In this document: one piece after another, positions 10,579-37,177 of the stretch
Layout of the letters: the number at the start of each line of letters is the position of its first letter
Numbering within the stretch: the stretch's first letter is position 1
NCBI GenBank assembly: GCA_001824555.1
Contig: MHXU01000095.1
Coordinates: 1-40,531 of the forward strand
Length of the DNA: 40,531 nt
From: Planctomycetes bacterium GWC2_45_44
GTDB taxonomy: Bacteria > Planctomycetota > Phycisphaerae > Sedimentisphaerales > UBA12454
Direction of reading: 5' to 3'
The notes under the pieces: generated by a model
Told to the model about the DNA's origin: nothing
Databases searched by the model: none
What the model saw: only the letters and a program-made list of their open reading frames with translations
Program-made: the position numbers and the translations under genes

Positions 10579-11946
10579 TTATATATGGGGTGGAACATAT
10601 CCCTTTATTCCTCCGCGACGCGACCACTCCCGATATACAAAAAACATCGGAATAAGGGATAGAAATCCGAAGAAGGCGACCCAAATGTATAAATAACGAT
10701 AGTTACCAATTATGTCAAAAAACTTACCTGCAAGGAAACTGCCCAAAATAATGCCCAAAGAATTGACAATTGCGTTTGCAGAACTAAATTGGCCATATTT
10801 TTCTCTTGGTACCAATGCAATAAACATAGGAACATTACTGACCGCAAAAAACAGATACAAAGCTGTCGTGATTAAGGAATACACAAAATAGGTAGATTTG
10901 TCATGAATGGCAAAAAAGGAAACGGTCATCCCAACAACAAAAATAGCAACGCCTATAATGTATATTCGCAAAGGATGTAATTTGTCAGAAAGATAACCCA
11001 TCGGTATCATTAAGCAAAATGATAAAAGCATACACCAACTTTGAATTTTTCCGATTTCGTCCAAGCTCAATCCAAGAGTATCGCGTGCGAAAAGTAAGCC
11101 GAAGGCACTGGTTGAGACGACAGCAACCATGAAAGTGGCTGTACCCAAGAAAATCCAGATGTATAGAGAATGACCAAAACATTCATGTAAGTAAACTTTA
11201 ACTGATCCTATGATGCTTTTACCATGAGCGTGTTCCGGAGGCGGAGGATATTCCCCTTCCTTGACCCGCCAGCACATAAATAGGAAAGAAATCAAATATA
11301 CTAAACCGATAACAAAATAGATTTCTCTCATGTGAGTTTTTGAAAAACCAAGAATATATCGATAAAACAGAAATCCAGAAGCCGTACCCACAACCTGGAA
11401 CCAAGCCATAAACCGCCCCATAAACTGTTCAGGAACAACATCGGCAAATAAATAATAGTAAATAGAAGATATAAACATATTAAAAAATTGGAAGCAAACT
11501 GAAAAAATACAAATAAGTGCAATCATTAGGCTGATGCTAGAAATATTGCAGGAATACAAAATGTGTGAGTGCAGCCATATACCAATGGCATCACTGTAGC
11601 CAATCAGAATTAAAAATAAGGCAACAAAAGGGGTCGCTATGAAAAGAAAGGGAATACGACGTCCAAAACGACTTCGATATCGATCACTTCTTACACTGAT
11701 AATTGGATTTACTATCATATTCATTAAGCTTGGAATACTCCCGATAACAACACCCATCAAAAGGTTCGATGCTCCCAAATCTTTTAGTGCAAGGGGCAAT
11801 AAATTGGGTATAACTGCTCTCATAAGCGTAAAGCAGAAATCGCCCCACAACAGCCATAGGAAAAGAGTAATCAAGCCTAATCGAGTATACGTCAACGTCC
11901 CTGCCCGATATGGTTTTATAGCTTTTAAATCCACCGCATTATTCAT
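10579..11946 (-). CDS. MFS/GPH-type sugar transporter
   Basis: This 455-residue, strongly hydrophobic protein has about 12 predicted membrane segments. The loop between helices 2 and 3 carries SDRYRSRFGRRIP at 87-99, which fits the MFS/GPH cation-sugar symporter signature, and the second half carries the related GYLSDKL loop. The expected role is import of a mono- or oligosaccharide across the inner membrane. The ATG at 11946 lies 36 nt after the sialidase-like stop and has only a weak GTGAG ribosome binding site. Its place between catabolic enzymes and secreted binding proteins suggests it carries the product of polymer breakdown. The substrate cannot be read from sequence. Confidence 0.87.
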   Translation of the reverse strand: MNNAVDLKAIKPYRAGTLTYTRLGLITLFLWLLWGDFCFTLMRAVIPNLLPLALKDLGASNLLMGVVIGSIPSLMNMIVNPIISVRSDRYRSRFGRRIPFLFIATPFVALFLILIGYSDAIGIWLHSHILYSCNISSISLMIALICIFSVCFQFFNMFISSIYYYLFADVVPEQFMGRFMAWFQVVGTASGFLFYRYILGFSKTHMREIYFVIGLVYLISFLFMCWRVKEGEYPPPPEHAHGKSIIGSVKVYLHECFGHSLYIWIFLGTATFMVAVVSTSAFGLLFARDTLGLSLDEIGKIQSWCMLLSFCLMIPMGYLSDKLHPLRIYIIGVAIFVVGMTVSFFAIHDKSTYFVYSLITTALYLFFAVSNVPMFIALVPREKYGQFSSANAIVNSLGIILGSFLAGKFFDIIGNYRYLYIWVAFFGFLSLIPMFFVYREWSRRGGIKGYVPPHI

Positions 11947-13295: not shown

Positions 13296-14627
13296 TTATT
13301 GTACAGCTCTCGGCGAAATCACACCACTCCTACTGCAAAGGATGATCTCGTGGCCATAATGGTCATTTTGGGGGTTTCGTGCATATAAAATCTGTCCCTG
13401 GCTCCAGCGGGCACTTAACGGCTGTCCTTCTTTATTCAATACAACTTTCATCTCATAAACCATGTGCACCTGTTCAATTTCTCCTGCAACTTTGAATTGT
13501 TTAGTATTCAGAATATCTTCCCAGACAAGTTTATCAGATTTCGTCCTTCCTATGATATGCAAATCTGTTGACTCCTGCCCACTAACAGAGTTGATGACGA
13601 CATCCAGTTGAACCTTAGGTCCAAACATGTTTTCACACAATGGCAACCAGTTGAGCGGTATCGAGGTCTTTGACTGAGTTTTTATTTTGCTTATTTCAAC
13701 AGGAATATCGTTCCAAATTGTTCCGGAAACAGCCGTCAAAGGACTTTCTTCCCAGGTCATGTGACGATAATGATGGTCTTTTATCCAGGCAGCATCAGGA
13801 CGCATGCTTCTTAACATATTCTCGTTTATCCCGTTAAGATTCGGTGCAGCACTCATGTGAGAATATGAACGATAATCCCAGCAATCAGGCTGGATGGTTT
13901 TCCATTTAGGTGAAAGTTTTTGAAAAATATTTTTAAAAAATGCCGCATTATCAAAACCTGGAAAACAAATCAAACCATTACTTATCATGCCTGTGTCGCC
14001 GATAACCACCAGGGACCCTGCCCCAATTTGTGTCTGAAAACCATAGATATTATCATTATAGGTAATTAGCGGCGTAATTCCTTTAGGCAATGATGCTCTT
14101 AAAACACGGCCTCCCTGGCCATATCCAACTTGTAATTCGCCTGATTTCGCACGTTCTATAGTTTTGTCATCTGACATATAATTAGGGTCCCATTGAACAC
14201 CAAGTCTGTCAAAAAGCAGACTTACGCGTTCAAGGTCAAAATTTTCTTCCCAAAAATCAGAACGAGATAAGAACGAGTTGACAAGTAACAACACTCCACC
14301 ACCACGATTAACAAATCTTAGCAACGCATCAACATCCTGTGGTGCCCACCGATATGGAGATGCCCCATTATAAAGCGGGTAGTCGGGATTTGCAATCAAC
14401 AGAATATCTGCATCAAAAAATGCGGCATCGCTGTAAGGCTGCGTAAGCAGGCGAATATCGTATTCCCCAGCCAAATCTGCATTCAGAAAAGAAAGCCCGT
14501 TTGGATGAAAACAATCACCCGGCGTGTAACGACCGAAATTCTCCTGATAGCCCCCTACGGAGATGTCATTTCCGATGCGATGTCCCGGCATCATATGATA
14601 GAAAGCATCGAATAGCACTCGAATCAT
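13296..14627 (-). CDS. Glutamine-amidotransferase/ThuA-like domain protein of unknown function
   Basis: This is a 443-residue protein without a signal peptide. Residues 1 to about 235 look like a class I glutamine-amidotransferase-like flavodoxin fold, as in ThuA or beta-galactosidase trimerisation domains: MIRVLFDAFYH, then FFDADILLIANPDYPLY, FVNRGGGVLLLVNSF and GAGSLVVIGDTGM. No catalytic Cys in a GxCxG nucleophile elbow is visible, so glutaminase activity is unlikely. Residues about 260-443 are beta-rich and may be a separate sandwich domain. ATG 14627 has AGGAG with 8-nt spacing. It sits between URO-D-like and sialidase-like genes in a tight run. A sugar-binding or structural role is possible, but the function is unknown. 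Confidence 0.72.
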   Translation of the reverse strand: MIRVLFDAFYHMMPGHRIGNDISVGGYQENFGRYTPGDCFHPNGLSFLNADLAGEYDIRLLTQPYSDAAFFDADILLIANPDYPLYNGASPYRWAPQDVDALLRFVNRGGGVLLLVNSFLSRSDFWEENFDLERVSLLFDRLGVQWDPNYMSDDKTIERAKSGELQVGYGQGGRVLRASLPKGITPLITYNDNIYGFQTQIGAGSLVVIGDTGMISNGLICFPGFDNAAFFKNIFQKLSPKWKTIQPDCWDYRSYSHMSAAPNLNGINENMLRSMRPDAAWIKDHHYRHMTWEESPLTAVSGTIWNDIPVEISKIKTQSKTSIPLNWLPLCENMFGPKVQLDVVINSVSGQESTDLHIIGRTKSDKLVWEDILNTKQFKVAGEIEQVHMVYEMKVVLNKEGQPLSARWSQGQILYARNPQNDHYGHEIILCSRSGVISPRAVQ

Positions 14628-14669: not shown

Positions 14670-15650
14670 TTATTCCGCGGCTTTTTGACTATACTCTTTC
14701 AATAATGAAACATAGCACTGATAATTGTGGAGAGATACATCTGGCGGAGTCTGGTGATCAACAGATGGTATAAAACCACCCTGTCTCATAATTGGCAACA
14801 GACGGTCAAATTCAGTACGCATCGCAGTTTCACCATTTTTCATTACCATTTTGTCAAAAGCGCCAATCATTCTAAATCGAGGGTGTTTTGAACGAATTTC
14901 CTGAATGTCAATTCCCGAAGCACGTTCCAACGGAAGTATGCCCTGAATTCCAACTTTCTCAAGCCAGGGGATTAACTCGCTGACATTGCCATCAGAATCA
15001 ACAAAAGGAATAATACCCAATTGCTTTAAAATCGGGACAATGCGTCGATAATATGGTGCAATAAACTCCTCAAAACATGTCTCGGAGAGCATCGGGCCAT
15101 GGTTGTAAGACATATCTTCTGCAAACGTCATAAAATCGGGTATGCAATAATGACTAATTTGTTCTAATAGATATACATAATAATCTGCTAAGTCATTATT
15201 GATTTCATGCATAAGCTCAGGCTCATCATAGAAAGAATATAGATGACGCTCAATTCCAAACAGTGTACGAGGAAACCAGAAAAATCCCTCCAACGTAATC
15301 CAGAAAACGCTTTGGCCGCACTGATGCCTATGTGCAATTTTTCTCAGTTCGTCGTCATGACCATAATCAGAATACAAAAACGGTTTAATGCTATGATAAT
15401 CGTTTTTATTTTTGATAAAAACATTATCGGGTAGAGGGTATTGCGTATGTCGCGGCGATGTCCAGAGATGATCGTATGCATCAAGACCAAAATAACTACG
15501 CAGGTTGGAGGCGCCAACCAGATCAGTGGGAAGCCCTTCCCCATGCCAACGCGCAACTGTCTTATCCCAATACTCAGCCCATTCTATGCATGGAACTCGG
15601 TCAACAGGTCGAAAGGACATCACTGCTTTGAAACGTTCTACATTATTCAT
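14670..15650 (-). CDS. URO-D-like family protein lacking the HxC zinc motif
   Basis: This 326-residue member of the uroporphyrinogen decarboxylase superfamily starts MNNVERFKAVMSFRPVDRVP, typical of the methyltransferase-like branches. Where the MtaA-type proteins have HxCG, this one has FVDSDGN (D218 and D220), so the zinc site for thiol methyl transfer seems absent. The rest of the barrel is intact, including LERASGIDI and the MIGAFDK segment in the place of the usual GNVD. Its reaction is unknown; other ligands or substrates are likely. It is co-directional with neighbours at 42-66 nt spacing. The other two URO-D-like proteins in the window keep HxC. Confidence 0.8.
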   Translation of the reverse strand: MNNVERFKAVMSFRPVDRVPCIEWAEYWDKTVARWHGEGLPTDLVGASNLRSYFGLDAYDHLWTSPRHTQYPLPDNVFIKNKNDYHSIKPFLYSDYGHDDELRKIAHRHQCGQSVFWITLEGFFWFPRTLFGIERHLYSFYDEPELMHEINNDLADYYVYLLEQISHYCIPDFMTFAEDMSYNHGPMLSETCFEEFIAPYYRRIVPILKQLGIIPFVDSDGNVSELIPWLEKVGIQGILPLERASGIDIQEIRSKHPRFRMIGAFDKMVMKNGETAMRTEFDRLLPIMRQGGFIPSVDHQTPPDVSLHNYQCYVSLLKEYSQKAAE

Positions 15651-23704: not shown

Positions 23705-24745
23705 ATGATAAAAACACAAAAAATTAGATTAGCTGACTTAGCAAAAGCAGCCGACGTATCAGTGGCCACAGTGTCGATGGCACTGGCGGACCATCCTGAC
23801 ATAAATCAGGAAACCAAGCTTCGCGTTCAGTTGCTTGGTCATAAGCTCGGGTATCGAAATCGGGCCGAACAACAAAAACAGTTCGCGACCAACCTTGAAA
23901 AACATCTCCCTGAACGTTTTGGATTTATGCTTATTGGCAGAAAATTACAGGATGAAGATCGTGTTGCATTTCTACATGCTTTAACAGTAGTTTCTGCGCA
24001 AAACGGCATACGGCTGGAAATTTCTGCCCTTGAACCGAACAAGAATTCTTCGGAATTAGAAGATCATGTACTAACCTATGCAAAAGGGGTCGATGGTTTG
24101 TTGCTTTCCGGTCTCGTTGAGCATGAATTGCTCAACAAACTCCGAACTGCCGGGGTACCTTATGTAGTACTCGGACATAGTATTGAAGATCCTTATGAAA
24201 CGGCTGTGGAGAATGAGCAGCTTGTGCTTTTTGACAATATCAAAATGGGAAGATTAGCTACAAATTATTTGCTCTCTTTAGGCCATAAACGCATTGGGTT
24301 TATTTGCGAAACCATAGTTAAGGGGTTATGCAATGATCTTTGGTTAACAGGATATAAAATTGCACATATTGATAAAGGATTAGTTCCAGATCCGGAGTTG
24401 ATTCATGTGGCAGGAAAAGTATTTGCCGGCGGAGCAACTGCTGCGCGTGCCGTGCATGCACTCGCAAATCATCCAACTGCCTATGTAATACCTGATGCCA
24501 GAACCGCATGTTCCTTTATGCAGGAGATGCGAGCTAATGGAATTAAAATTGGTCCTCGCGATATAGTCATTGGCTGCGTACCTGAGATGGAAAAAAGATA
24601 TGATATTGAAGATTATCCAGTACTTATAGAAGATTATGACATGATGGCTAAAGTTGCAGTTCGCCATCTCATTGAACTCTGCACAAAACCTATGCCTTGC
24701 AGAACCGAAATTGCTATACCATTTGTGGCAAAAAACTTTTCCTGA
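23705..24745 (+). CDS. LacI-family transcriptional regulator
   Basis: This 346-residue protein has a LacI-type helix-turn-helix at about 6-52 (RLADLAKAADVSVATVSMAL then ADHPDINQETKLRV). A periplasmic-binding-protein-like effector domain runs from about 70 to the end, with the typical NIKMGRLATNYLLSLGHKRI segment. Such proteins bind DNA as dimers and respond to a sugar or sugar-derived ligand. It is the first gene of the plus-strand run and faces the propeller run, so control of both directions is plausible. The start at ATG 23705 has no clear ribosome binding site, but the HTH begins right after it. The effector cannot be named. Confidence 0.92.
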   Translation: MIKTQKIRLADLAKAADVSVATVSMALADHPDINQETKLRVQLLGHKLGYRNRAEQQKQFATNLEKHLPERFGFMLIGRKLQDEDRVAFLHALTVVSAQNGIRLEISALEPNKNSSELEDHVLTYAKGVDGLLLSGLVEHELLNKLRTAGVPYVVLGHSIEDPYETAVENEQLVLFDNIKMGRLATNYLLSLGHKRIGFICETIVKGLCNDLWLTGYKIAHIDKGLVPDPELIHVAGKVFAGGATAARAVHALANHPTAYVIPDARTACSFMQEMRANGIKIGPRDIVIGCVPEMEKRYDIEDYPVLIEDYDMMAKVAVRHLIELCTKPMPCRTEIAIPFVAKNFS

Positions 24746-24777
24746 ACGCCACTGCTATTCGAAACAGGAGTTATAAC

Positions 24778-27700
24778 GTGCTTTCACAATCAATATCTTC
24801 ATCGCGAAAAACCGACTCTCACGGGCCTGTAGGCTTTTGGTTTTTTAATGATGGTCTCAATCTGGCGGAAATAGATTATCAGTTAGACCAGTTTGTTAAA
24901 CAAAAATTTTCAGGTGTTGTTGTGCATCCTCGGGACGGGTTATCTATCCCCTGGCAATCAGAGACATGGTTTGAAGTGCTTGAATACATAATTGGAGCCT
25001 GTAGCCATCGAAATTTGAAAGTCTGGTACTATGATGACGCTCCATATCCAAGCGGATCGGCAGGAGGACGTCTTATCCAACAATCCCCGGAACTGGCCGG
25101 CAAAAGCTTACTATTTGTTGATAAGGTCGCGATGCCTGTTCAAGGGGTCATTCGAATACCATTTTCTGTAACTGGCTGTTTGCTGAAAGTTTATGCCGCT
25201 GCAATAAATTCCGACAATGACTTGACTGACGTATTTAAAGATATTACGCATTATGCAGGTTTGGTGGGCGATCGCTGGTTTGTCCAGGGAGAGAGAACAG
25301 TAGGTTACGGTCCAATGTTCATAAACGATAACAACCACCCGCATTGGCGTGCATTTATCGAGCATGAAAATTGGGTGTTACACTGGCCTGTTAACAATGA
25401 TCAGCAATACCGTATTCTCGCTGTCTTTAAAACTGAAGCCGGGGACACAAGGCATGGCAAATACGTGGATCTCCTGAACCCAGAGACAACTGAACGATTT
25501 ATTGAACTAAGTTACAACACTACATTGAAGCGACTTGGAGCTTCTCGCTTCAAAAACTTTGCTGCTGCATTTACAGATGAACCAAGATTGTGTTCGCCCT
25601 ATCCGTGGACAGATACATTACCGGATGATTATTACAGGGCTTATAATGAGGATATATTTCAAATTTTGCCGCACTTAGCCATTCAGATAAGTGATTACAG
25701 CTATGAGGCGAGGTATCGATACAGACGACTTCTTGGCCAACTATGGGAAGAGCGATTCATGAAACCTTTGGCCCAATGGTGTCAGCAAAATGGATTACCG
25801 TTAACGGGTCATATTTCTCCGGAAGAGGACCCCATTCTTCAAACACTCGGGAGTCCGGGGCTTACCCGATTGATTACCCATATGCAATGGCTTGGCTATG
25901 ATTTGGTTCTCAAGCCATTTGGTTCAAGCGAGCAGGCCAAGCTTGTAGGCCCCAAACTTATAAGCTCAATAGCACATCAAAAAGCCAAGCCGCATTTGGT
26001 AACCGAAACTATGGGATGTTGCGGAGAAAATCTGACCATAAACGAAATGTTCAAATTAATAAATTGGCTGGCTGTTTGCAGTTATGATACCTTCATCCTG
26101 CACGGTCAGTATATGAGTTTGGATGGGCATCGAAAACGCGAAGCCCCTCCTTCCATATTTTTTCAAAGCCCCTATTGGAACCATTTTCATAAACTTTCAG
26201 AATATATTTCAGAATTGAGTCAATGGAATTCTCAGGGGAAACCAGTCCGCCCGATTGCGGTACTTTATCCAACCGCAGCCTTTGAAGCATTGGTACCAGT
26301 CGATAATAATCGCGCAACAGCCTTAGCAGTGAATCTTGCTGAGCTAACGGGTGGACTGACATCTGCCGCGCTGGAGTTTGACTTTGTAGCGGATCACGAT
26401 TTAGTTGAAACGAATATTGTGGGCAGCAAAGGAAATAACTACTTTCAAATTGGAGATGCTGTCTATGAGACGCTTATACTGCCAGATGTTTCTATTTTGG
26501 ATGATGCAACCATAAAAACAATAGAACAGTTACGGGATGCTAAAATAACCATCTTCTCGCTTACGAAGAAAATTGGCTCAATAAATTCGCAACGTAATGT
26601 TGATTTCTTATCTATGGACAAACAACATGTGATTCTTCAATTAGTTCAACTTTATCGCTCATGGGTTAGTTTCCCCTCAGACCGCAGACTTTATGTTCAA
26701 ACACGTACTGTCAACGATAAAAACCAAAGAATGCTCTGGAATCCAGAAGATCATCCAATAGCAATAACTATCAGGGGTGGTGAAGATATCACTTTCGCAG
26801 TTTCCAGCACTTTGCCATTTCCAAATGTAAAAAAGAATAAAAACAGTGAGAATATTTTAAATCTTGAGCCGTTTCAACTGATTATTATTACTGACCGAAC
26901 CCCCTCCGCCAACTCAGTAGACACGTTGATGCGACCCGCGGACGACGATGTGGCAAAATGGGAAGACCTGTGGCATTTTGCTCCTCAAGAAGTTAACACA
27001 TTATTACTTTCACACTGGAATCTCGAATTGTCAGACAGCATTCATGCAGTTCAATTGCCTGCTCGCAGCGGGGTCTTACCGTGGAATCTTGCCGGCCAAA
27101 CTGTCAAAATGTGGTGCGAAATTATTATTGATGATATATTTAAAGATGCTGAGCTTTGGTGGGAAAAATCAACATTTGGCGGCCCTTATGAGCTTTCTAT
27201 AAATGGTAAAAAAATCTCTCCCCTTGAAAGAGCTCACGAACACAGTTCGTATGAGATGCATGCAAACCTCAATGAATTTATTGTATCCGGAGTCAATCGT
27301 GTAGAGGTTGTTGTGGGTCCCATCCAGCGTTATGAGCCCGCAATGTTAGAACCGCTGCAATTAAAAGGCTGGTTCAGGGTGCTTCGTCTCAATGACAAAG
27401 ATGGCGGCCTCACAGCTGATCTGAGACCCGACTGGTACAAAAAATTGTTGGACGATGATCCGACTTTATCACGAATTGGACCATTGAATAAAATTAAATC
27501 TATCACCGAACCCACAGACTGGACTAAGTTAGGTTTTCCGCAATACTCTGGAACTATTTCATATCAGAACAAATTACACATAAAGAACACCTCAAACCGC
27601 ATATTTCTGGAAGCCGACCCGAATCAGGTTGATGCTTTTGAGTTGTTTGTGAATGGTTTGTCCGCCGGTGTTTGCTGTTGGTCGCCATTCCGTCTGGAAA

Positions 27701-27885
27701 TCTCCGAATTTGTCAAAAAGGGTATAAATGTGATTGAAGTGCGGGTAAGCAATACTTCCATTAATCGAACCGAAGGAAAAGCACAACCCAGCGGCCTTAA
27801 TGGAAACTTACGAATATTGATTAGTGCCTGTACTGAAAAACAGGACACGATAAACATTCCCCAGGTAAGTGTTAGGCAATCATAA
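24778..27885 (+). CDS. GH106-like glycoside hydrolase (alpha-L-rhamnosidase-like) 1
   Basis: This protein is 1035 residues from GTG 24778, which has CAGGAG 7 nt upstream. An ATG at 24697 would lie inside the LacI gene and lacks support. The sequence fits the GH106 group: an N-terminal GFWFFNDGLNLAEIDYQLDQ segment, VWYYDDAPYPSGSAGG, FTDEP at about 265-269, TGHISPEEDP, and TETMG at about 409-413. The Glu residues in TDEP and TETMG are catalytic candidates. The C-terminal part (from about 740) contains beta-sandwich domains of the galactose-binding type (WWEKSTFGGPYELSINGKKI). No signal peptide is seen, so cytoplasmic cleavage of an imported oligosaccharide is likely. Rhamnosidase activity is the family's known activity, not proven here. 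Confidence 0.82.
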   Translation: MLSQSISSSRKTDSHGPVGFWFFNDGLNLAEIDYQLDQFVKQKFSGVVVHPRDGLSIPWQSETWFEVLEYIIGACSHRNLKVWYYDDAPYPSGSAGGRLIQQSPELAGKSLLFVDKVAMPVQGVIRIPFSVTGCLLKVYAAAINSDNDLTDVFKDITHYAGLVGDRWFVQGERTVGYGPMFINDNNHPHWRAFIEHENWVLHWPVNNDQQYRILAVFKTEAGDTRHGKYVDLLNPETTERFIELSYNTTLKRLGASRFKNFAAAFTDEPRLCSPYPWTDTLPDDYYRAYNEDIFQILPHLAIQISDYSYEARYRYRRLLGQLWEERFMKPLAQWCQQNGLPLTGHISPEEDPILQTLGSPGLTRLITHMQWLGYDLVLKPFGSSEQAKLVGPKLISSIAHQKAKPHLVTETMGCCGENLTINEMFKLINWLAVCSYDTFILHGQYMSLDGHRKREAPPSIFFQSPYWNHFHKLSEYISELSQWNSQGKPVRPIAVLYPTAAFEALVPVDNNRATALAVNLAELTGGLTSAALEFDFVADHDLVETNIVGSKGNNYFQIGDAVYETLILPDVSILDDATIKTIEQLRDAKITIFSLTKKIGSINSQRNVDFLSMDKQHVILQLVQLYRSWVSFPSDRRLYVQTRTVNDKNQRMLWNPEDHPIAITIRGGEDITFAVSSTLPFPNVKKNKNSENILNLEPFQLIIITDRTPSANSVDTLMRPADDDVAKWEDLWHFAPQEVNTLLLSHWNLELSDSIHAVQLPARSGVLPWNLAGQTVKMWCEIIIDDIFKDAELWWEKSTFGGPYELSINGKKISPLERAHEHSSYEMHANLNEFIVSGVNRVEVVVGPIQRYEPAMLEPLQLKGWFRVLRLNDKDGGLTADLRPDWYKKLLDDDPTLSRIGPLNKIKSITEPTDWTKLGFPQYSGTISYQNKLHIKNTSNRIFLEADPNQVDAFELFVNGLSAGVCCWSPFRLEISEFVKKGINVIEVRVSNTSINRTEGKAQPSGLNGNLRILISACTEKQDTINIPQVSVRQS

Positions 27886-30800
27886 TGCCACCTCTTTGGT
27901 TAAAAGATTTTGCGAATCCACCGGTTTCGTTTAGACCAGTTCCATTCTGGAGTTGGAATGAACGCATGGAACCTGCCGAAGTCCGCCGGCAAATTGACAA
28001 AATAGCAGAAGCAGGTTGGGGAGGTATAATGATTCATAGTCGAATAGGGTTGATAACGCCTTATCTTGGTAATGAATGGTTCGATGCGGTCGATGCGGCA
28101 ATCGAACAGTGTCGTAAATATCAGCTTAATGTATGGCTTTACGATGAAGACAAGTGGCCCAGCGGATTCAGTGGTGGAACTGTCCCGCTTGCCAATGAAT
28201 CATTTCATATGAAAACCCTTATTGCCAGGTCAGTACACTCAGCTATACCTGAAAATGTCAGCCCAATAGGCTCGCCTGTCAACGATTTGCAGATTTATAA
28301 ATGGACAGCCCCCTTGGGACATGCCTTTTTCAATGGTACCTGTTTTCCTGACCATATGAGTCGACCGGCGATGCAAAAATTTATTGAAGAAGCCTATGAA
28401 TCGTATTATCAAAGATACAGAGATGATTACGGCCAACTTATTGTGGCCGAATTCACAGACGAGCCCTGCACTATTTTTCGACGAAGGCTGCCAATTGGGT
28501 CCGTTCCGTACACGGATGAATTACTGGAAGCTTTTGAACAAGAGTACAGTTATAACCCAATTAATAAATTGCATCTATTATTTGTGAATTCTGTAGACGC
28601 CCAACAATTCCGAATTCATTATTTTAGAATCATTAACAAGCTTTTTGAAAAAAACTATTCCGCACAAATAGGTGAATGGTGCCGTTCACATAATATTCAT
28701 TTGACTGGACATTATATACTTGAGGGTGGCTTGTATGACCAGCAGTGCTGGGGTGTAAACATCATGCCCAACTATCGTCACATGGGCATACCCGGGATAG
28801 ACCATCTTTGTCGGCAAATTGAAGAACGTGTTTCTGCAAAACAGTGTCAGAGTGTTGCAAATCAGTATGGCCAAAAAAGATTAATTAGCGAAATGTATGG
28901 TTGCGCCGGTCAGTCACTAACATTTGAAGACCGCCTTTGGATTGCTTCACAGCAAATGGCTCTTGGCGTCAACATGCTCAATTATCATTTGTCGCTCTAC
29001 ACGATGGCAGGCTGCCGCAAACGCGATTGTCCTCCCAATATTTTCTATCAACAACCATGGTGGCCGGTAAACAAAGCAATCGATGAACCTCTTAGTCGTA
29101 CATGCTTTGCATTAAGCCAGGGTCAGTTCCATGCCGAAATGCTTATAATACATCCTCAGGAATCAACCTTTGCTTTGTGGCAATCAAAAGCGATATATAC
29201 CCCTACTCAAGAAGATTTCACTTTGGCAGAGTATGACGAGGAACCAACTGCAAAGGGGATTAAACAAACAATCACCAGTATTGAAAAGGAGTTTTTGTCA
29301 CTTATTAATGTGATGCTCAGCTCCCAGCGTACCTTTGATTTTGGCGCCGAAGCGATTCTTGCGGACATTGGCAAAGTCGAATTTGTGGATGGCCAGCCTG
29401 TAATCTGCATGGGACAGATGCGTTACGCACTTGTGATTTTACCAGGCATGCTTACGATAGCGACTACTACGCTTGATCTTTTGGAAGAGTTTCATCGGAA
29501 AGGTGGACAAATTATTCGTTGTGGCCAGGCACCACAATTATTAGACGGCATACCTTCTTCACGATTAGCCAAATGGCTTGAGGCTATTCCGTCTGTTACT
29601 ATCGATGATGTGCCTATCCGCATCAAAACAGTGATTCCTCCTGCCGTAGAATTAGTAGATGCCAATAGTGAAGATGCACGAATGCTATATGTTCATATAC
29701 GCAATCTTGGAAACGACCGTTTGATTTATCTGGTCAATCTGCATCGTACGAGAGCATTTAATGCAAGTATAAAACTTCATGGTCAGTTTAACTCTGTTCA
29801 CCAACTTGATACAATAACAGGTGAACAAACAGAATTAAAAGCAATTGTCGATAGCAACGGACTCATGGTAGAATTGCCATTTGCCCAAACACAATCTCAT
29901 CTCCTTTTGCTCTCGCCAAAATCTGCAGATAACAAACAGATTTCACCTATAGTCAACAATCCAAAACGCAAGTCGAGTTTTGCTCCCGAAGAAATAAAAG
30001 TTGAGCGACTTGATGATAATGCGATCACGCTCGATTATGCCTCTTGGCGAGAAGGAACAAATGATTGGGCATCTATGCCTATGCCAGTCATTGCGATTCA
30101 AGAACGACTTAATATTATTCAATATAATGGAGTCCTTGCACTGCGTTATCCCGTACATATTCAATCATTGGACAAAAATCGCAAAGTTCATCTTGTAATC
30201 GAATATCCAGACAAATATGAAATTCGAGTCAATCAATACCCTGTCAAATATAACGGCCTGCCCTTCCATATTGATTTTCGATGGATGCCTATCGACATTA
30301 CAGGTTTATTACATGAGGGCAGAAATACAATCGAACTATTATGCAATAACTTTCAATATGGCGATTTAAAAATCATAAAAGATCAAGCATCTCGTTATGG
30401 GACCGAAATCGAAGCGATTTATCTCGTGGGCGATTTTGCCGTCCAGGGCACCCCGACAAATGCAAAACCTGCATCGGCGCGATGGCATGCCTATGGATTG
30501 CCACCGATTGATGTTCAATGCTTTGCAGGCGATTCATTTTATCTAACCAATCCTATTGATCTGAAATTTGGTGACACCACTGTCCAGGGATTGCCATTTT
30601 ATGCCGGAAGACTAAAGCTTTCAGCAAAGATACCAAATGTCGACCTTGATGGATGCAAAACATTTATTGAAATCGACAAATTGGACGTTGCTTGCGGAGA
30701 AGTGATAGTTAACGCTAAGACTTCAGGATATTTTATCTCCCATCCATTTCGAGTAGAACTCAAAGACATTAGTGTCGATAACAGTAAACAATTTTCGATT

Positions 30801-31040
30801 ATCCTTTATAGCACCTTGAGAAATCTGTTAGGTCCTCACCATCATGCGGAAGGCGAACTTACCGATACCGGCCCAAATTGCTTTAAGCCGTGGCATGGTA
30901 CCCAATATGAGGAGTCTCCTGAAGTGGCGAAACTGTTAATTGATTGGACGAAAGGGAAACATGTCCCGTCAAAATGGAAAGATGACTATTGCATGGTCAG
31001 TTTTGGAAATCTGGGTCAAATACGAATTGTAAACTATTAG
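27885..31040 (+). CDS. GH106-like glycoside hydrolase (alpha-L-rhamnosidase-like) 2
   Basis: This 1051-residue protein overlaps the stop of the first GH106-like gene as TAATG, so translation is probably coupled. It follows the same plan: FWSWNERMEPAEVRRQIDKI, VWLYDEDKWPSGFSGG, FTDEP (190-194), TGHYILEGG, and LISEMYG with E336. A beta-rich C-terminus from about 680 includes LVIEYPDKYEIRVNQYPV. The two proteins resemble each other in motifs but are clearly diverged, suggesting different linkages or sugars in one substrate. No signal peptide is present. The activity is inferred from family; the exact sugar is unknown. Confidence 0.83.
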   Translation: MPPLWLKDFANPPVSFRPVPFWSWNERMEPAEVRRQIDKIAEAGWGGIMIHSRIGLITPYLGNEWFDAVDAAIEQCRKYQLNVWLYDEDKWPSGFSGGTVPLANESFHMKTLIARSVHSAIPENVSPIGSPVNDLQIYKWTAPLGHAFFNGTCFPDHMSRPAMQKFIEEAYESYYQRYRDDYGQLIVAEFTDEPCTIFRRRLPIGSVPYTDELLEAFEQEYSYNPINKLHLLFVNSVDAQQFRIHYFRIINKLFEKNYSAQIGEWCRSHNIHLTGHYILEGGLYDQQCWGVNIMPNYRHMGIPGIDHLCRQIEERVSAKQCQSVANQYGQKRLISEMYGCAGQSLTFEDRLWIASQQMALGVNMLNYHLSLYTMAGCRKRDCPPNIFYQQPWWPVNKAIDEPLSRTCFALSQGQFHAEMLIIHPQESTFALWQSKAIYTPTQEDFTLAEYDEEPTAKGIKQTITSIEKEFLSLINVMLSSQRTFDFGAEAILADIGKVEFVDGQPVICMGQMRYALVILPGMLTIATTTLDLLEEFHRKGGQIIRCGQAPQLLDGIPSSRLAKWLEAIPSVTIDDVPIRIKTVIPPAVELVDANSEDARMLYVHIRNLGNDRLIYLVNLHRTRAFNASIKLHGQFNSVHQLDTITGEQTELKAIVDSNGLMVELPFAQTQSHLLLLSPKSADNKQISPIVNNPKRKSSFAPEEIKVERLDDNAITLDYASWREGTNDWASMPMPVIAIQERLNIIQYNGVLALRYPVHIQSLDKNRKVHLVIEYPDKYEIRVNQYPVKYNGLPFHIDFRWMPIDITGLLHEGRNTIELLCNNFQYGDLKIIKDQASRYGTEIEAIYLVGDFAVQGTPTNAKPASARWHAYGLPPIDVQCFAGDSFYLTNPIDLKFGDTTVQGLPFYAGRLKLSAKIPNVDLDGCKTFIEIDKLDVACGEVIVNAKTSGYFISHPFRVELKDISVDNSKQFSIILYSTLRNLLGPHHHAEGELTDTGPNCFKPWHGTQYEESPEVAKLLIDWTKGKHVPSKWKDDYCMVSFGNLGQIRIVNY

Positions 31041-31068: not shown

Positions 31069-32418
31069 ATGAAAGTTGCAATTATTGGAGCTGGAAGCTA
31101 CACATGGTCGCTTGGATTCGTTCGCCAGTTTGTCCATTCTGAGAATCTGAGCGACTTAACACTGGCAATGATGGATATAAATCCTGAAAGGCTTAAGACA
31201 CTTAGCACTGCAGCACGCATTTATAATAAGTGCCATAGCTCCCCAATTAGAATTGAAGATATGCAAAATCTCGATGCGGCTCTTGACGGTTCAGATTTTG
31301 TAATTGTCTGTATCTCAACAGGTGGATTGGAAGCAATGAGGTTTGATATTGAAATACCCGAAAAATACGGTATTTGGCATACCGTTGGCGATACAGTCGG
31401 CCCTGGTGGATGGTCGAGAGCAACAAGAAATATTCCAGTTTTCAACGACCTGGCCGCCAGAATGAAAAGATATTGTCCTGATGCATGGCTAATTAATGTA
31501 ACCAATCCGCTCACCGTACTTACAAGGCTGCCTCAACGAGATTACGGCATTAAGACCATAGGTATGTGTCCGGGGGTAGAAGAGCAGGCCAGAGCAATGG
31601 CATCCGCCGTTGGCATTAGGAAAGAGAATATCGAACTTTCTTTTAGGGTGGCAGGGATCGACCATTGTTCATATTTCCTGGATTTGTTCGCCAATGGGAT
31701 CGATGTCTTAAACAAACTTAAAGAAATCGGATGTTTTCGGAATGACAATTTATTGTCTAAGCAAATTAAAACTGATGACCCTATGGCTCAAGGCGTGATG
31801 AATAACATTATATTTATGTTATGGTACAACCTTGGATACCTTCCCGCAATATCCGATCGGCACGCTGTTGAAAATTACCCGCAATTTCAAGTTAGCAAAA
31901 GCGGCAATCTCCCGTATGGTGTTGAGCGAACCAATATTGCCCAACGGCAAACCAGGCTCGATAAATGTCAGGCTCTGATAGAGGATTACATTAAAAGTCA
32001 GGATGACAAATCGCTTGGTGCCTTAGGGCATGGCGATGACCCGGTTGTACAAGTAATAGAATCACTTTCTGGAAAACGTACTTTCCTGTGGTGTTCAAAT
32101 TATATGAACATAGGACAATTGCCAGGTTTTCCAGAAGGAGCAGTGGTTGAAACACGATGCATGTTTGACAAAGCCGGCGTTCATCCACTTTGTTCAAAAA
32201 TGCCCGATATACTCAAGCCGATCGTCTTACCGCACGTTTTAAGGCAGGAGAATAGTATTGATATCATTCTGCACGGCACTTTTAAGGAATTAGTCGCTTT
32301 GATAATGACTGACCCTATGTGCTGCCAGCTTTCACCGCATGAGTGCCGCCAAATGGTAAGAGAACTGTTAGAAGCTAATAAATCATTTATTAAGAACCCG
32401 GAACTTTTGGAATTTTGA
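31069..32418 (+). CDS. Glycoside hydrolase family 4 enzyme
   Basis: This 449-residue protein fits GH4, which cleave alpha- or beta-glycosides through an NAD+ and Mn2+ dependent oxidation-elimination route. Seen are the Rossmann loop GAGS (7-10), NVTNP (143-147), the metal Cys in GMCPG (C167), H199 (AGIDHC) and SDRHAVENYP (D263-H265). GH4 includes alpha-galactosidases, alpha-glucosidases, 6-phospho-glycosidases and alpha-galacturonidases; I cannot choose among them. It is cytoplasmic. A weak AAAGAA lies before the ATG. The gene follows the second GH106-like gene by 28 nt and precedes the MttB-like gene by 14 nt. Confidence 0.88.
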   Translation: MKVAIIGAGSYTWSLGFVRQFVHSENLSDLTLAMMDINPERLKTLSTAARIYNKCHSSPIRIEDMQNLDAALDGSDFVIVCISTGGLEAMRFDIEIPEKYGIWHTVGDTVGPGGWSRATRNIPVFNDLAARMKRYCPDAWLINVTNPLTVLTRLPQRDYGIKTIGMCPGVEEQARAMASAVGIRKENIELSFRVAGIDHCSYFLDLFANGIDVLNKLKEIGCFRNDNLLSKQIKTDDPMAQGVMNNIIFMLWYNLGYLPAISDRHAVENYPQFQVSKSGNLPYGVERTNIAQRQTRLDKCQALIEDYIKSQDDKSLGALGHGDDPVVQVIESLSGKRTFLWCSNYMNIGQLPGFPEGAVVETRCMFDKAGVHPLCSKMPDILKPIVLPHVLRQENSIDIILHGTFKELVALIMTDPMCCQLSPHECRQMVRELLEANKSFIKNPELLEF

Positions 32419-32432: not shown

Positions 32433-33923
32433 ATGAAAACACTTAGAGAGCCAATTAGATTTCTCAACCGCGAGGAAATGGAGACTATTCATCGGAACGC
32501 ATTACGCATTCTGGCGGAAATTGGCATGAAGATTGATCATGATGAGGCTTTGGACTATTTGCAGGCGGCTGGATGTAAAATTGATCATTGTAAGAAAATT
32601 GTCAAGTTTCCTTCTGATGTGGTACAAAAGTTCGTTGATAAGATGAAGTCTGATTTTAAGAGCCGCAATGAACCCGGTAAAATGGCTGTGAGATATTCAC
32701 ACGTGAGATTTCGACGCGAGAATTTTTGCGTTCATGAGGACTTCACGGCTAGTGCTGGAGGATTTTGTGTGCACATATTTGATTTACATGGCATTCGTCG
32801 ATCTGGAACTTTGCAGGATACGCGAGATTCACTTAAATTGGTAGCGCAACTCGACCAAATTACTTATTCCGGGATTCCGATAGCGGCTCAGGATATTCCT
32901 GTAGCTCTGCGACCGATTACTATGGCTGCAGAACTAGTAAAACATACTGATAAACTTGGCGGTATAGAAGCATTTAATACTTTTGATATTGAATATATAT
33001 GCAGAATTGCTGAAGTTGCCCGTGGCGGCCGTGAAGAACTAAAAAAAAATCCTATTCTGGTTGGCTATGCCGAAGCAAGAACTCCGCTTGCCATCGATAG
33101 GAATATGTGTGAAATAATGATTGAGTATATTAAACGCGGCATGCCGCAATCACTTGATACGATGCCTAATGCCGGTGCGACCGCTCCCATGAACCCTGCC
33201 GGCGCTCTGACCCTGGGAATAGCGGAAACACTCGGAGGACTCGTGCTTGGCTATACTATTGATAAAGATGCCTGCATGACTATTGATGTTACACCTTCTT
33301 TTTCTGACATGGGTACTGGAATTTTTAAATATGCCGGTGCAGAGCGAGCTCCCCTGATTGGAGCACGAATTCAGATGATTAGTGAGTATTATGGTTGTCC
33401 CAGCGGTGTCCATGGCGGAAAAACAGACACCTGCGTTCCTGATATTCGCTGCGGCGTTGAAAAAGCTGTATCTATGATAATGCCAATTCTCTGTGGTGCT
33501 GTGGGTTTCGGGACATTGGGACAACTTGAAAACGGTGCGACATTTTCACCAATTCAACTGGTAATGGATAACGAAATTGTTCGATATGTTCGAAGAGCTA
33601 TTACAGGGTTTGAAGTTACCGACAAGTCAATCAATGTGGATATTATAAAAGAGATAGGCATAGGTGGTAACTATTTACAAACCGAAGACACTCTCAACCA
33701 GTTTCGTGAATTCCTCAATTTATCACCATTCTTCAAAGTGCAGCCGTGGGGCATCAGAAACGAATTAGACGAGGTCAATCGTTGGGAGAGAATGGCACAT
33801 AAAAAAACTCAGGAGCTACTGAAGAACGAGTTTATGTCGCCATTAAATCGCGACCAAATTTTGGAAATCGACAAAATAGTCGATGAAGCTGCAAAAAAGT
33901 TGCATGAACAAGGTCAAATCTAA
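32433..33923 (+). CDS. MttB-family (trimethylamine methyltransferase-like) corrinoid-dependent methyltransferase
   Basis: This 496-residue member of the MttB superfamily has an N-terminus (MKTLREPIRFLNREEMETIH) and later segments GGKTDTCVPDIRCGVEKAVS (328-347) and MDNEIVRYVRRAITGFEV (378-395) that match the family. There is no in-frame stop, so it is a non-pyrrolysine homologue; known members such as MtgB and MtpB demethylate quaternary amines and pass the methyl group to a corrinoid protein. Here the setting among glycosidases suggests another methylated compound. The ATG at 32433 has GAAGAAAG about 8 nt upstream; a TTG at 32415 overlaps the GH4 stop. No corrinoid-binding protein is in the window. 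Confidence 0.85.
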   Translation: MKTLREPIRFLNREEMETIHRNALRILAEIGMKIDHDEALDYLQAAGCKIDHCKKIVKFPSDVVQKFVDKMKSDFKSRNEPGKMAVRYSHVRFRRENFCVHEDFTASAGGFCVHIFDLHGIRRSGTLQDTRDSLKLVAQLDQITYSGIPIAAQDIPVALRPITMAAELVKHTDKLGGIEAFNTFDIEYICRIAEVARGGREELKKNPILVGYAEARTPLAIDRNMCEIMIEYIKRGMPQSLDTMPNAGATAPMNPAGALTLGIAETLGGLVLGYTIDKDACMTIDVTPSFSDMGTGIFKYAGAERAPLIGARIQMISEYYGCPSGVHGGKTDTCVPDIRCGVEKAVSMIMPILCGAVGFGTLGQLENGATFSPIQLVMDNEIVRYVRRAITGFEVTDKSINVDIIKEIGIGGNYLQTEDTLNQFREFLNLSPFFKVQPWGIRNELDEVNRWERMAHKKTQELLKNEFMSPLNRDQILEIDKIVDEAAKKLHEQGQI

Positions 33924-33973
33924 CTTACTGACTACAAATCAAATTTTATTTATTCATTGGAGTCAACTTAGCC

Positions 33974-35062
33974 GTGAACAGTAAAGAACGAGTTTGTATA
34001 GCAATGACAGGTGGAATACCAGATATGGTTCCCGTAATTCCTCAAATTTGTCACCCTCATGCCATCAAGGCATTAGGGTTAGATTACAGGGAAACAATTA
34101 TTGAATGTCTCCGAAATCCTTTGCTGATAAATGAACTCGACCTTAAATGTGTTAAGATGTATGGGGTGGATGGGATACGGCTTTGGGTTCCATCCGATCC
34201 CATAACAGCTATCGAAGATGATGGAAATGATGTCTGGCAAATAGACGCAAAAACTGGTCAGCGAATTGGCAGAATCGATTTTATGGGTGGGGGTTGGGTT
34301 GAGCCATTGGAAGAAAAACCTTTGGTGGAAACCTTTGCAGATATCGAACAATTAAAAGTCGTTTCGGCTGACGAACTTCTTAAAACAGAAAAATTTCAAT
34401 CTGTAAAACAAATCATAGATGAGAATGGTGCAAACCTTTTTATGATAGGTGGAGTACCAGCGTTATCTTTTGAGTACGTCACCATTTTACGCGGCAAACA
34501 GCAGGCATTGATGGATATAATTGAAAAGCCGGAATTTGTCAAAGCTATTATTGAGCGGGGGCTGCAGATTTCTATCGAAGTGTCCATTGCATTTGCGAAA
34601 ATGGGAATTGATGCCTTATATATTGGTGAGACATTCGGCGGTCTCATCGGACCTAATCTTTTCGAAGAATTTTGCGTGCCTGCCTTTCGGCGTTTTACTG
34701 CCACCCTCAAAAAATACAACGTATTGATATATTTACATGTGTGCGGAAACAGCACACAGCTATTTGAACTGATGGCCGACACTGGCGTGGACTGTATAGA
34801 ACCGCTGGATTCATTGGGAGGTGTTAGTGTAGCAGATGCCAAGAAACGAGTGGGAAATCGTGTTGCGCTTATGGGCGGTGTGAATACCGCATTACTTGCT
34901 CATGGTTCTTTAGATGAGGTCGTAATAGATTGCCACCGTTGCCTTGATGAAGGTGCACCAAATGGCGGTTATATTCTTGCGGCAGGAGATATGCTGCCGA
35001 CAGAAACCTCAAAAGAAAAAGTTAAAGCTATGATAAATGCTGCTAAAAACTACCAATATTGA
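33974..35062 (+). CDS. URO-D/MtaA-like methyltransferase family protein
   Basis: This 362-residue protein starts with GTG (GGAG about 11 nt upstream) and belongs to the uroporphyrinogen decarboxylase superfamily. It keeps HVCGN at 255-259 (H255, C257), the zinc-ligand pattern of the MtaA-type methylcobamide:thiol methyltransferases, and GVDCIEPLDS and MGGVNTALLA in the C-terminal half. Next to the MttB-like gene it is a candidate second methyltransferase that takes methyl from a corrinoid protein to a thiol or folate. That is inference from the pair; haem biosynthesis is less likely. It lies 50 nt after the MttB-like gene and 13 nt before the sialidase-like gene. Confidence 0.82.
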   Translation: MNSKERVCIAMTGGIPDMVPVIPQICHPHAIKALGLDYRETIIECLRNPLLINELDLKCVKMYGVDGIRLWVPSDPITAIEDDGNDVWQIDAKTGQRIGRIDFMGGGWVEPLEEKPLVETFADIEQLKVVSADELLKTEKFQSVKQIIDENGANLFMIGGVPALSFEYVTILRGKQQALMDIIEKPEFVKAIIERGLQISIEVSIAFAKMGIDALYIGETFGGLIGPNLFEEFCVPAFRRFTATLKKYNVLIYLHVCGNSTQLFELMADTGVDCIEPLDSLGGVSVADAKKRVGNRVALMGGVNTALLAHGSLDEVVIDCHRCLDEGAPNGGYILAAGDMLPTETSKEKVKAMINAAKNYQY

Positions 35063-35075: not shown

Positions 35076-36179
35076 ATGAAATTTGAAATTATCGAAACCG
35101 GTTATGTTTACAAGACGGCGATTGATTGTACAGATAAAGTTGCTGTGGGTTCACGATGTGCAGTAAGCTCCAGAGAAGAGATACTTTGTACGTTCATGAT
35201 ACAAAAAAAACTGGGTGGCAATGATTTTAAACCTGTGCTCTGTCGATCTTTTGATCATGGCAAAACCTGGACAAAACCGAATCTTATATGGCCCGACCTG
35301 CAAGATAAATTTTCAATTTTCGGCTCGATAAGTAAAGGAACTAATGGCGAATATCTATTTTTCGGTCAACGTACCGTAATTGATAAGGTCGGCGAATCAT
35401 TCTGGTGTGAGGCAACAAGCGGATTAAAAGCAAATGAACTTATCTGGGCCAAGTCCTGTGATAACGGAGCTACATGGAGCAAATTTACAGTTATACCAAT
35501 GCCTGTGCCAGGCGCAGCCGAAGCGCCGGGTGCAATGTGTGTTGCCAGAGATGGGAGTTGGTATTGCTGTTATAGTCCTTACAAAACATTCAACCCTGAC
35601 ATCGCCGTAAAAATTAATCAGGTGATTATGTTACGCAGCAGGGATGAAGGGAATACATGGGAACACAAGCAGATGTTGACTTTCGATGAGCCTGATTCAG
35701 GAGGTGCCGAATCATGGATTACCGAGTTAGGTAACAGTACACTTTTGGGTATGTCGTGGCATTTCAACCGAACCAGCGGTGCTGATTACCCAAATGCCTA
35801 CTCATTATCATTTGACGGTGGTAGTAGTTGGCAGCCGACTCAAGCAAGCGGACTTAAGGGGCAATCGCTGGCACTGACTCCGGTCATTGATGATTATGCA
35901 CTCGTTGTGTATAATCAGCGAAAAAATCCGCCGATAGGAATCTGGCTTGCATTGTTAAAGTCAAACAGAAAAGAGTTTTTGATTGACGCAAATGAAATTA
36001 TCTGGACTGCCGCTATCCCAGGCCGAAATAATACTGATACTGACCATCGACAGTGGACAAATTTTGCTTTTGGAGAGCCTTCAGTGACTATGCTTCAACA
36101 CAACATTATCTTAATTACATTTTGGTGTATCCAGCCAGATGCCCAGGGCATTGGCTTTGTTAAAATAAGAATGAAGTGA
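35076..36179 (+). CDS. Sialidase-like (BNR/Asp-box) protein
   Basis: This 367-residue protein has four Asp boxes: SFDHGKTW (58-65), SCDNGATW (127-134), SRDEGNTW (188-195) and SFDGGSSW (245-252). It therefore has a sialidase-like beta-propeller fold. No signal peptide is seen. It is distinct from the 431-residue paralogue on the minus strand. Glycoside cleavage or sugar binding is inferred, and true sialidase activity is not assured. The ATG has AAAGGAAA about 8 nt upstream. It follows the URO-D-like gene by 13 nt. Confidence 0.83.
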   Translation: MKFEIIETGYVYKTAIDCTDKVAVGSRCAVSSREEILCTFMIQKKLGGNDFKPVLCRSFDHGKTWTKPNLIWPDLQDKFSIFGSISKGTNGEYLFFGQRTVIDKVGESFWCEATSGLKANELIWAKSCDNGATWSKFTVIPMPVPGAAEAPGAMCVARDGSWYCCYSPYKTFNPDIAVKINQVIMLRSRDEGNTWEHKQMLTFDEPDSGGAESWITELGNSTLLGMSWHFNRTSGADYPNAYSLSFDGGSSWQPTQASGLKGQSLALTPVIDDYALVVYNQRKNPPIGIWLALLKSNRKEFLIDANEIIWTAAIPGRNNTDTDHRQWTNFAFGEPSVTMLQHNIILITFWCIQPDAQGIGFVKIRMK

Positions 36180-36232
36180 TTGCGAAAGACCTAAACTTAT
36201 AAAATTAATACTGTATGGACACAGGTATGAAC

Positions 36233-37177
36233 ATGCGTAATCTTGGAGCAACAGGCCTGAAAGTTTCAGAAATCGCATTTGGTGGTGCAGAGATAGGTTT
36301 ATCTTATGGTGCGAACAAAGATTGTTTACTTTCTGAGTCAGATGCCATGACCCTTTTACATGCTGCTGTCGATAGAGGTATAAATTTCTTTGACACAGCA
36401 CGCATGTATGGTTGTTCGGAAGAGCGCATGGGTAAAGCATTCAAAGGCATTCGTGACAATATTGTTATTGCTACCAAATGCCCGTATCTACGCAATAATG
36501 ACAAACAAATACTAACCGGCCATGTGTTGCAAAGCTATATCGAAACATCTCTGTACGCAAGCTTGAAAGCGCTTCAGACTGATTATATCGATGTATATCT
36601 TGCCCACAGTGTCGATACTGAGATACTAAAGTGTGACGAAGTTGCCCATGCATTCGAAGATTGCAGACGCAAAGGTTTAGTCCGCTTTATCGGGGTTTCA
36701 ACATACGGTTTCAGTGATGTAAAACTCGCTATCGAGGATGGAAGATGGAATGTCATACAGCTTGCACTTAACCTCATGGATCAAAGCTGCGAAGATCTGC
36801 TTCCGATTGCCCAACAACGTGGGATTGGCATTATGATTAGATCCGTTCTAATGCGAGGCATTCTGACGGATAAAGGTGTTGATCTTAGTCATGAAAAACT
36901 TCGCTCAGTTTCCGAGCACCGCAGAAAATATTTTGAATTGCTCGATAATAACGGTCTATCACTCTCGGATTTAGCAATGAAATTTGTGCTCTCATTCAAG
37001 GATATTTCCTCAGCTTTAGTTGGTATAGATAAAATTGAATTTCTCAATAAAGCGGTCGCCTTGGCGAATGGGGAATGTCTTGCCCCCGAATTATTGTCCC
37101 GAGCAAGGAAATTGGCTTATCCCGAACCGGAATTTCTGAATTTGGGTGTTTGGGATAGGAATGGATGGACTAAATAG
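36233..37177 (+). CDS. Aldo/keto reductase
   Basis: This protein of about 314 residues from ATG 36233 was given that start because AGG lies 7 nt upstream (ACAGG); ATG 36215 and 36227 are possible alternatives. The AKR tetrad is visible: D54 (FFDTARMYG), Y59, K82 (ATKCP) and H125 (LAHSVD). NAD(P)H-dependent reduction of a sugar aldehyde or ketone, or the reverse oxidation, is expected. It is the last gene of the plus-strand run before a 353-bp gap, so it probably works with the glycosidases. The substrate is unknown. Confidence 0.88.
   Translation: MRNLGATGLKVSEIAFGGAEIGLSYGANKDCLLSESDAMTLLHAAVDRGINFFDTARMYGCSEERMGKAFKGIRDNIVIATKCPYLRNNDKQILTGHVLQSYIETSLYASLKALQTDYIDVYLAHSVDTEILKCDEVAHAFEDCRRKGLVRFIGVSTYGFSDVKLAIEDGRWNVIQLALNLMDQSCEDLLPIAQQRGIGIMIRSVLMRGILTDKGVDLSHEKLRSVSEHRRKYFELLDNNGLSLSDLAMKFVLSFKDISSALVGIDKIEFLNKAVALANGECLAPELLSRARKLAYPEPEFLNLGVWDRNGWTK

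Follow-up and report, generated by a model that had tools for sequence, protein, structure and literature searches.

A lysine at the pyrrolysine position of an MttB-superfamily protein in a planctomycete glycosidase locus, and its possible role in sugar demethylation

The MttB superfamily comprises thousands of proteins without an assigned substrate, and its solved cases all concern amines. Plant and algal polysaccharides often contain methylated sugars, and no corrinoid-dependent enzyme for their demethylation is known to us; our literature searches turned up none, and nothing relevant on MttB proteins in connection with glycosidases, methylated sugars or a lysine at the pyrrolysine site. Here we describe a locus on contig MHXU01000095.1 of Planctomycetes bacterium GWC2_45_44, in which an MttB-superfamily gene and a UroD-superfamily gene lie among genes for sugar-degrading enzymes. 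The whole stretch analysed (40,531 nucleotides) is called the window, all coordinates refer to it unless another contig or locus is named, and all genomes compared are metagenome assemblies.

In MttB of Methanosarcina barkeri, Tyr364 assists the pyrrolysine (PMC9842639), while for MtgB the residues Y94, N199, R309, H345 and F353 have been proposed to bind betaine (PMC6855144). The corrinoid protein that takes up the methyl group may be a shared one encoded elsewhere, as with MtqC (PMC8604678) and MtgC (PMC12478193), and a single such protein is known to serve several MttB-type enzymes, or methionine synthesis as well (PMC8604678, PMC12478193). UroD-superfamily S-methyltransferases carry a His-Cys-Cys ligand set, whereas in the O-methyltransferases one or both cysteines give way to carboxylates or non-coordinating residues (PMC10418091).

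The MttB protein and its lysine

The window's MttB protein belongs to a clade with lysine where M. barkeri MttB has pyrrolysine (the Lys clade). The argument turns on four features:

31069..32418, + strand: GH4 glycosidase, dependent on nicotinamide adenine dinucleotide (NAD) and metal, motif GMCPGVE (Pfam Glyco_hydro_4 and 4C, 157 bits)
32433..33923, + strand: Lys-clade MttB-superfamily protein, candidate corrinoid methyltransferase (first methyltransferase, MT1), 496 amino acids, ATG start (Pfam MTTB)
33420..33422, + strand: AAA codon for Lys330, at the position of pyrrolysine 334 of M. barkeri MttB (alignment to 7xcl)
33974..35062, + strand: UroD-superfamily protein, candidate zinc-dependent O-demethylase (MT1), 362 amino acids (URO-D, 145 bits)

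The MttB protein passes Pfam MTTB (PF06253) with 209 bits (cut-off 25), covering profile positions 30-492 of 500, and is similar over its full length to its closest solved structures, MttB (7xcl, E ~1e-47) and MtgB (2qne, E ~1e-43). Against the pyrrolysine-type equivalog TIGR02369 it scores 292 bits, below the cut-off of 525. An earlier reading of the window made without database searches (the sequence-only reading) had described an MttB-family gene lacking an in-frame amber stop, directly followed by a URO-D superfamily gene with the motif HVCGN. Both descriptions hold, in that the 32433-33923 frame is open with a lysine codon at the pyrrolysine position, and HVCGN occupies residues 255-259 of the UroD protein.

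What stands out most in the window MttB is the lysine that replaces pyrrolysine. Residue 330 aligns exactly with pyrrolysine 334 of the M. barkeri protein, in the motif HGGKTD, and the clade has lysine there in 12 of 12 members, within HG(G/A)KT or HAGKT. MttB-family proteins from the window's order mostly carry leucine at the aligned position, the rest having cysteine, tryptophan or asparagine; MtgB also has leucine. The source genome holds three MttB genes; stop codons suspected inside the other two proved to be normal gene ends, with both frames intact.

Searching the phylum gave four relatives of the window protein at 45-69% identity. When 84,980 species genomes were scanned with an alignment as query, 11 loci came up, the four phylum-search genomes included, where a single-protein query gave none. 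With the window's own sequence the clade is a small one of 12 known members, hosted by Planctomycetota (including Brocadiia), Verrucomicrobia, Lentisphaerae, Theseobacter, Chloroflexi and Glassbacteria. A 46-sequence tree with 11 full-length members recovers it as monophyletic with support of 100/100; the MttB and MtgB references, the only characterised enzymes in the tree, fall outside it, both on long branches. A superfamily tree had been proposed as a check on the sequence-only reading, and it places the window protein in this clade, separate from MtgB, with no grouping with a betaine clade seen (MtgB being the sole betaine reference).

Across the Lys clade, Y94, N199, R309, H345 and F353 of MtgB are replaced by Gly, Glu, Gly, Gly and either Gly or Ala, with no exceptions, and the counterpart of MttB Tyr364 in the window protein is glycine. 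Fixed throughout the clade are E179, Q239, D242, D285, H327 and K330, several clade-fixed residues sitting at barrel strand ends in a structure model of the window protein. Because all five of the proposed betaine residues are replaced, a betaine substrate is disfavoured, and we infer that the pocket could suit something larger and polar, for instance a sugar.

Gene neighbourhoods

A GH4 gene directly adjoins the MttB gene in four of the 12 clade members, namely the window and loci from a planctomycete (L136), a member of the Verrucomicrobia (L139) and one of the Lentisphaerae (L140), and the GH4 proteins of the latter three are 55-59% identical to that of the window. In L140 the two genes stand in the opposite order to that in the window; a LacI regulator precedes the pair, and L140 and the window have in common both this type of regulator and a DUF4838 protein. 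The case for the linkage is thus its recurrence in separate lineages together with a changed gene order, and the presence of GH4 next to MttB in three further bacterial lineages supports a link of the predicted methyltransferase to glycosides. NAD-dependent sugar oxidoreductases other than GH4 adjoin MttB in two more clade loci: a Gfo/Idh oxidoreductase lies directly before it in L137, and in L138 its direct neighbour is an ADH_zinc_N protein (a zinc-type alcohol dehydrogenase). A sugar-type ABC transporter directly follows MttB in L142, and in the loci read we recognised no amine transporter or betaine-processing gene beside a Lys-clade MttB. Because relatives with the same lysine often adjoin the same sugar enzyme, it is probably sugars, and not amines, that the Lys-clade MttBs of several phyla demethylate.

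The remaining features of the window are as follows:

589..2820, - strand: 743-residue protein, no Pfam family
2935..4071, - strand: second UroD-superfamily protein, ligand pattern HCC...N
10579..11946, - strand: MFS transporter, sugar type (MFS_1 / MFS_2)
13296..14627, - strand: 443-residue protein of unknown function, weak DUF4350 match
14670..15650, - strand: third UroD-superfamily protein, ligand pattern DSD...H
23705..24745, + strand: LacI-family regulator, of a sugar-responsive family and probably the local regulator (Pfam LacI and Peripla_BP_3)
24697..27885, + strand: large glycosidase-like protein, start uncertain
27885..31040, + strand: GH106-like (alpha-L-rhamnosidase family) protein (Pfam Glyco_hydro_106, 42 bits, cut-off 29)
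35076..36179, + strand: BNR/sialidase-like protein (BNR_2, 39 bits)
36215..37177, + strand: aldo/keto reductase (Aldo_ket_red, 151 bits)

The LacI-type regulator gene stands first, ahead of the glycosidase genes, and its end is overlapped by 49 base pairs by the 24697..27885 frame if a TTG start is used. From GH106 through GH4, MttB, UroD and BNR to the aldo/keto reductase the genes lie on the same strand, separated by 28, 14, 50, 13 and 35 base pairs, and these short gaps suggest a single, operon-like transcript. The flanking genes named in the sequence-only reading are present in the case of GH4, one GH106 protein (27885-31040), BNR and the aldo/keto reductase; the other protein that it called GH106-like, the first in order (24697-27885), matches no Pfam family above cut-off.

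A distant planctomycete (G537) holds the closest MttB, and orthologues of six window genes are found there in two clusters. One, on its contig C17, reads MttB2 - GH4 - MttB - UroD. The other, on that genome's contig C60, runs 743-residue protein - BNR - UroD - MttB2-type - 443-residue protein; the 743-residue and 443-residue orthologues are 49% and 54% identical to the window proteins, and the BNR orthologue (51% identical, locus L151) directly precedes the UroD orthologue. Because these clusters combine orthologues of the minus-strand genes of the window's left arm with BNR and UroD, we regard the left-arm genes as part of the same gene set as the MttB run. An orthologue of the window UroD was found in one of 391 other genomes (E <= 1e-40), and this genome, G537, is also one of the four in the phylum with a Lys-clade MttB.

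Elsewhere on the minus strand (6576-10232 and 17890-23257) is a run of repeat paralogues. They include two proteins of right-handed beta-helix type and several beta-propellers of NHL/Vgb type, with near-identical stretches, and are probably secreted or located at the surface. A phage-type tyrosine integrase is encoded near the contig end (39324-40454, minus strand). Since the window's order has no further member of the MttB clade at this identity, and an integrase lies nearby, the MttB locus may be a mobile acquisition.

The UroD neighbour and the corrinoid pathway

The putative zinc ligands of the window UroD are His255, Cys257 and Asp339, where MtaA has His-Cys-Cys, and the His-Cys-Asp triad recurs in the 54% identical G537 orthologue. 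MtaA (4ay7/4ay8) is its nearest solved structure by sequence and by fold; a structure model with a predicted local distance difference test score (pLDDT) of 88 has 4ay8 as its best fold match, followed by uroporphyrinogen decarboxylases. Against TIGR01463, the MtaA/CmuA family, the protein scores 105 bits, with a curated cut-off of 235. The MtaA-like role assigned to this neighbour by the sequence-only reading is not upheld, given the aspartate in place of the third ligand cysteine and this low score. Replacement of a cysteine zinc ligand by a carboxylate has been reported for the O-methyltransferases (PMC10418091), and Asp339 is such a replacement. Because His-Cys-Asp is a ligand set of the O-methyltransferase pattern, the window UroD is likelier to be a donor-side O-demethylase working in parallel to MttB than an acceptor-side MtaA. 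Relatives of the second window UroD (2935..4071) lie directly after MttB in L136 and about 5.6 kilobases from it in L142, and the UroD genes beside other Lys-clade MttBs belong to different subfamilies from the window UroD.

The source genome carries 27 UroD genes, of which just one (on contig C36) has the full His-Cys-Cys set by alignment, and the expansion suggests that a wide capacity for demethylation may so far have gone unnoticed. Triads vary among these loci (HxC..C once, HxC..D, DxD..H, HCC..N, HxC..K, HxH and others), and several of the genes lie inside sugar catabolic clusters. A first look at G537 gave 68 UroD candidates.

No corrinoid protein gene was found within the window, in agreement with the earlier statement that it must come from elsewhere, and the genome search proposed there for such a protein and its activator located both. 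The source genome assembly measures 2.93 megabases in 180 contigs and is 93% complete. A DNA search with a same-genus gene as query showed that the end of contig C46 carries the last 103 bases of a corrinoid gene, encoding 33 residues of which 29 (88%) are identical to the complete same-genus protein; the DxHxxG region would fall past the end of the contig. The complete protein from the same genus resembles MtbC and MtgC and has the motif GDLHDIGKN. By this homology the corrinoid gene is present in the source genome and appears to be cut by the assembly. PF02607 is matched in 157 of the order's 161 genomes, mostly by a protein of about 209 amino acids, and those that we read carry DLHDIGKN. 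A RACo-type activator is encoded at C32:4308-5906 (RACo_C_ter, 264 bits), and C72:11789-14254 encodes an 821-residue fusion of MTHFR, DUF5981 and a Pterin_bind methyltransferase domain of the methyltetrahydrofolate:corrinoid type, which is likely the exit to tetrahydrofolate. All partners are thus present, the corrinoid gene as a 3' fragment, and gene content predicts a complete pathway in this genome that carries methyl groups from their donor to methyl-tetrahydrofolate.

We considered and rejected the possibility that the genome has no corrinoid protein: its sole PF02607 hit, on contig C60, lacks DxHxxG, and the true gene is the one at the C46 end. The C60 protein (6590-7300) combines B12-binding_2 and B12-binding domains, with ETGELG replacing DxHxxG, and for a number of other genomes in the order, too, the top PF02607 hit is similarly weak. 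Four other B12-binding hits (two on C78, one each on C39 and C45) were set aside as proteins of about 440-560 amino acids whose starts resemble, by eye, B12-dependent radical SAM enzymes. In four loci of family f1 (L119, L120, L121 and L123) the order-wide corrinoid gene lies near EtfAB-like and ETF-QO-like genes (named by eye), and in three of these also near a large HTH/sigma-like gene; the Etf neighbours hint at a link of methyl-corrinoid chemistry to electron transfer flavoproteins. In locus L122 (genome G045, 3831-7509) two MttB-family genes, both with cysteine at the pyrrolysine position, are followed by a corrinoid protein.

Proposed function, rival explanations and known systems

We propose, tentatively and with confidence that falls a little short of even, that the locus works as a corrinoid-dependent system for demethylating a sugar or glycoside. 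The locus would take up and break down a methylated glycoside, with the GH106-like, GH4 and neighbouring enzymes cutting or oxidising the sugar. The Lys-clade MttB would act as a first methyltransferase, transferring a sugar methyl group (bound to an ether oxygen or perhaps to an amine) to the Co(I) corrinoid protein, and the His-Cys-Asp UroD would be a separate first methyltransferase onto the same MttC/MtbC-type protein. The RACo-type ATPase would re-reduce the corrinoid protein, and the predicted direction of methyl flow ends with the MTHFR/methyl-corrinoid:tetrahydrofolate methyltransferase fusion passing the methyl group to tetrahydrofolate. Lys330 may activate the substrate, either by protonating the leaving oxygen as a general acid or through a Schiff base with a keto-sugar. 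In the fullest form of the latter route, the NAD partner (GH4, Gfo/Idh or alcohol dehydrogenase) would generate the keto-sugar, Lys330 would form the Schiff base, and Co(I) would attack the activated adjacent O-methyl group; this specific scheme is speculative and quite improbable as it stands, and if true would mean that lysine takes over the function of pyrrolysine with another kind of substrate.

Demethylation of a sugar or glycoside, already suggested by the sequence-only reading, gains from the GH4 linkage and the loss of the betaine residues, and that the substrate is a methylated sugar is still something we infer. Several points weigh against it. We know of no MttB member acting on an O-methyl group or a sugar. 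GH4 neighbours are limited to four of the 12 clade members, and in G537 the UroD orthologue and the Lys-clade MttB lie on different contigs. The corrinoid protein is found in nearly the whole order, with or without MttB, and may serve mainly methionine synthesis. Confidence in the MttB model is low near Lys330 (pLDDT under 50 at residues 328-349), where the pocket geometry is unreadable. Finally, the characterised MttB-superfamily enzymes all use amines (PMC8604678, PMC9842639).

That amine specificity, together with the clear MttB fold and family of the window protein, is the main reason to consider that the methyl donor of the Lys-clade MttB is a quaternary or tertiary amine in, or released from, a glycoside, such as a methylated amino sugar or a choline or betaine glycoside, with the glycosidases freeing the substrate and the same corrinoid protein in use. 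We consider this unlikely: the five proposed MtgB betaine residues and MttB Tyr364 are lost, no gene for amine transport or betaine processing was recognised beside MttB in the loci read, and although the fixed acidic pocket residues would suit a cation, Lys330 and His327 would not. We are similarly doubtful that the clade is an MttB-type triosephosphate isomerase (TIM) barrel repurposed away from methyl transfer, for example to aldol cleavage, epimerisation or elimination through a lysine Schiff base on the products of GH4 or Gfo/Idh. A catalytic-type lysine and acidic residues are fixed in the clade, sugar oxidoreductases are frequent neighbours, and the MttB model weakly resembles Schiff-base aldolases in fold (E about 0.004-0.02, perhaps just from a shared barrel), but the strong full-length similarity to MttB and MtgB, the presence in the genome of corrinoid protein, activator and tetrahydrofolate exit, and a corrinoid-type UroD protein as the next gene all speak for methyl transfer.

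The arrangement envisaged by the sequence-only reading, in which MttB methylates the corrinoid protein and an MtaA-like neighbour passes the methyl group on to a thiol acceptor, is very improbable. It draws on the UroD gene directly following MttB and on MtaA as the nearest structure, but S-methyltransferases have His-Cys-Cys (PMC10418091) where both the window protein and its orthologue have aspartate as third ligand, the score of 105 bits is far from the 235 of the MtaA/CmuA family, a tetrahydrofolate exit enzyme is encoded elsewhere in the genome, and other Lys-clade MttBs stand beside UroD genes from different subfamilies. Lastly, with 27 UroD and three MttB genes in the genome, UroD adjacency is not rare there, and the two genes could adjoin glycosidases by chance; retention of the GH4-MttB pairing in four lineages, once in swapped order, and the recurrence of six window genes in the two G537 clusters make this the least credible explanation of all.

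If the Schiff-base scheme above is correct, the window protein would be, to our knowledge, the first ether demethylase of the MttB family and the first corrinoid enzyme for methylated sugars. A clade with lysine at the pyrrolysine site and ties to glycosidases would extend the MttB family to carbohydrates, and would inform the question of why pyrrolysine evolved where it did.

Compared with known systems, the window MttB is homologous over its full length to M. barkeri MttB (7xcl, PMC9842639) and has the same fold, and both place a residue derived from lysine above the barrel, at position 334 of MttB; the window protein differs in having lysine for pyrrolysine, glycine for Tyr364, sugar-enzyme neighbours and 292 bits where the pyrrolysine-type cut-off is 525. 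It belongs to the same superfamily as MtgB, MtpB, MtcB and MtyB, likewise without an amber codon; it differs from MtgB, the sole sequence of these compared, in its clade lacking the proposed betaine residues, in lysine versus leucine, and in its separate 100/100 clade. Among UroD-superfamily corrinoid methyltransferases, which include MtaA, MtbA and the O-demethylases OdmB and VdmB, the window UroD keeps the His-x-Cys and matches MtaA in fold, but has aspartate for the third cysteine, a change described for O-type enzymes, and is too distant from MtaA for membership. As in the MtqC/MtqA/RamQ model, the corrinoid protein and activator are encoded elsewhere and would be shared. The Ruegeria MtgBCDE system, a split methionine synthase and glycine betaine demethylase (PMC12478193), differs in that the source genome's pterin-binding domain is fused to MTHFR and its corrinoid protein is MtbC/MtgC-like; the likeness is that here too one corrinoid protein and a pterin-binding methyltransferase could serve both pathways.

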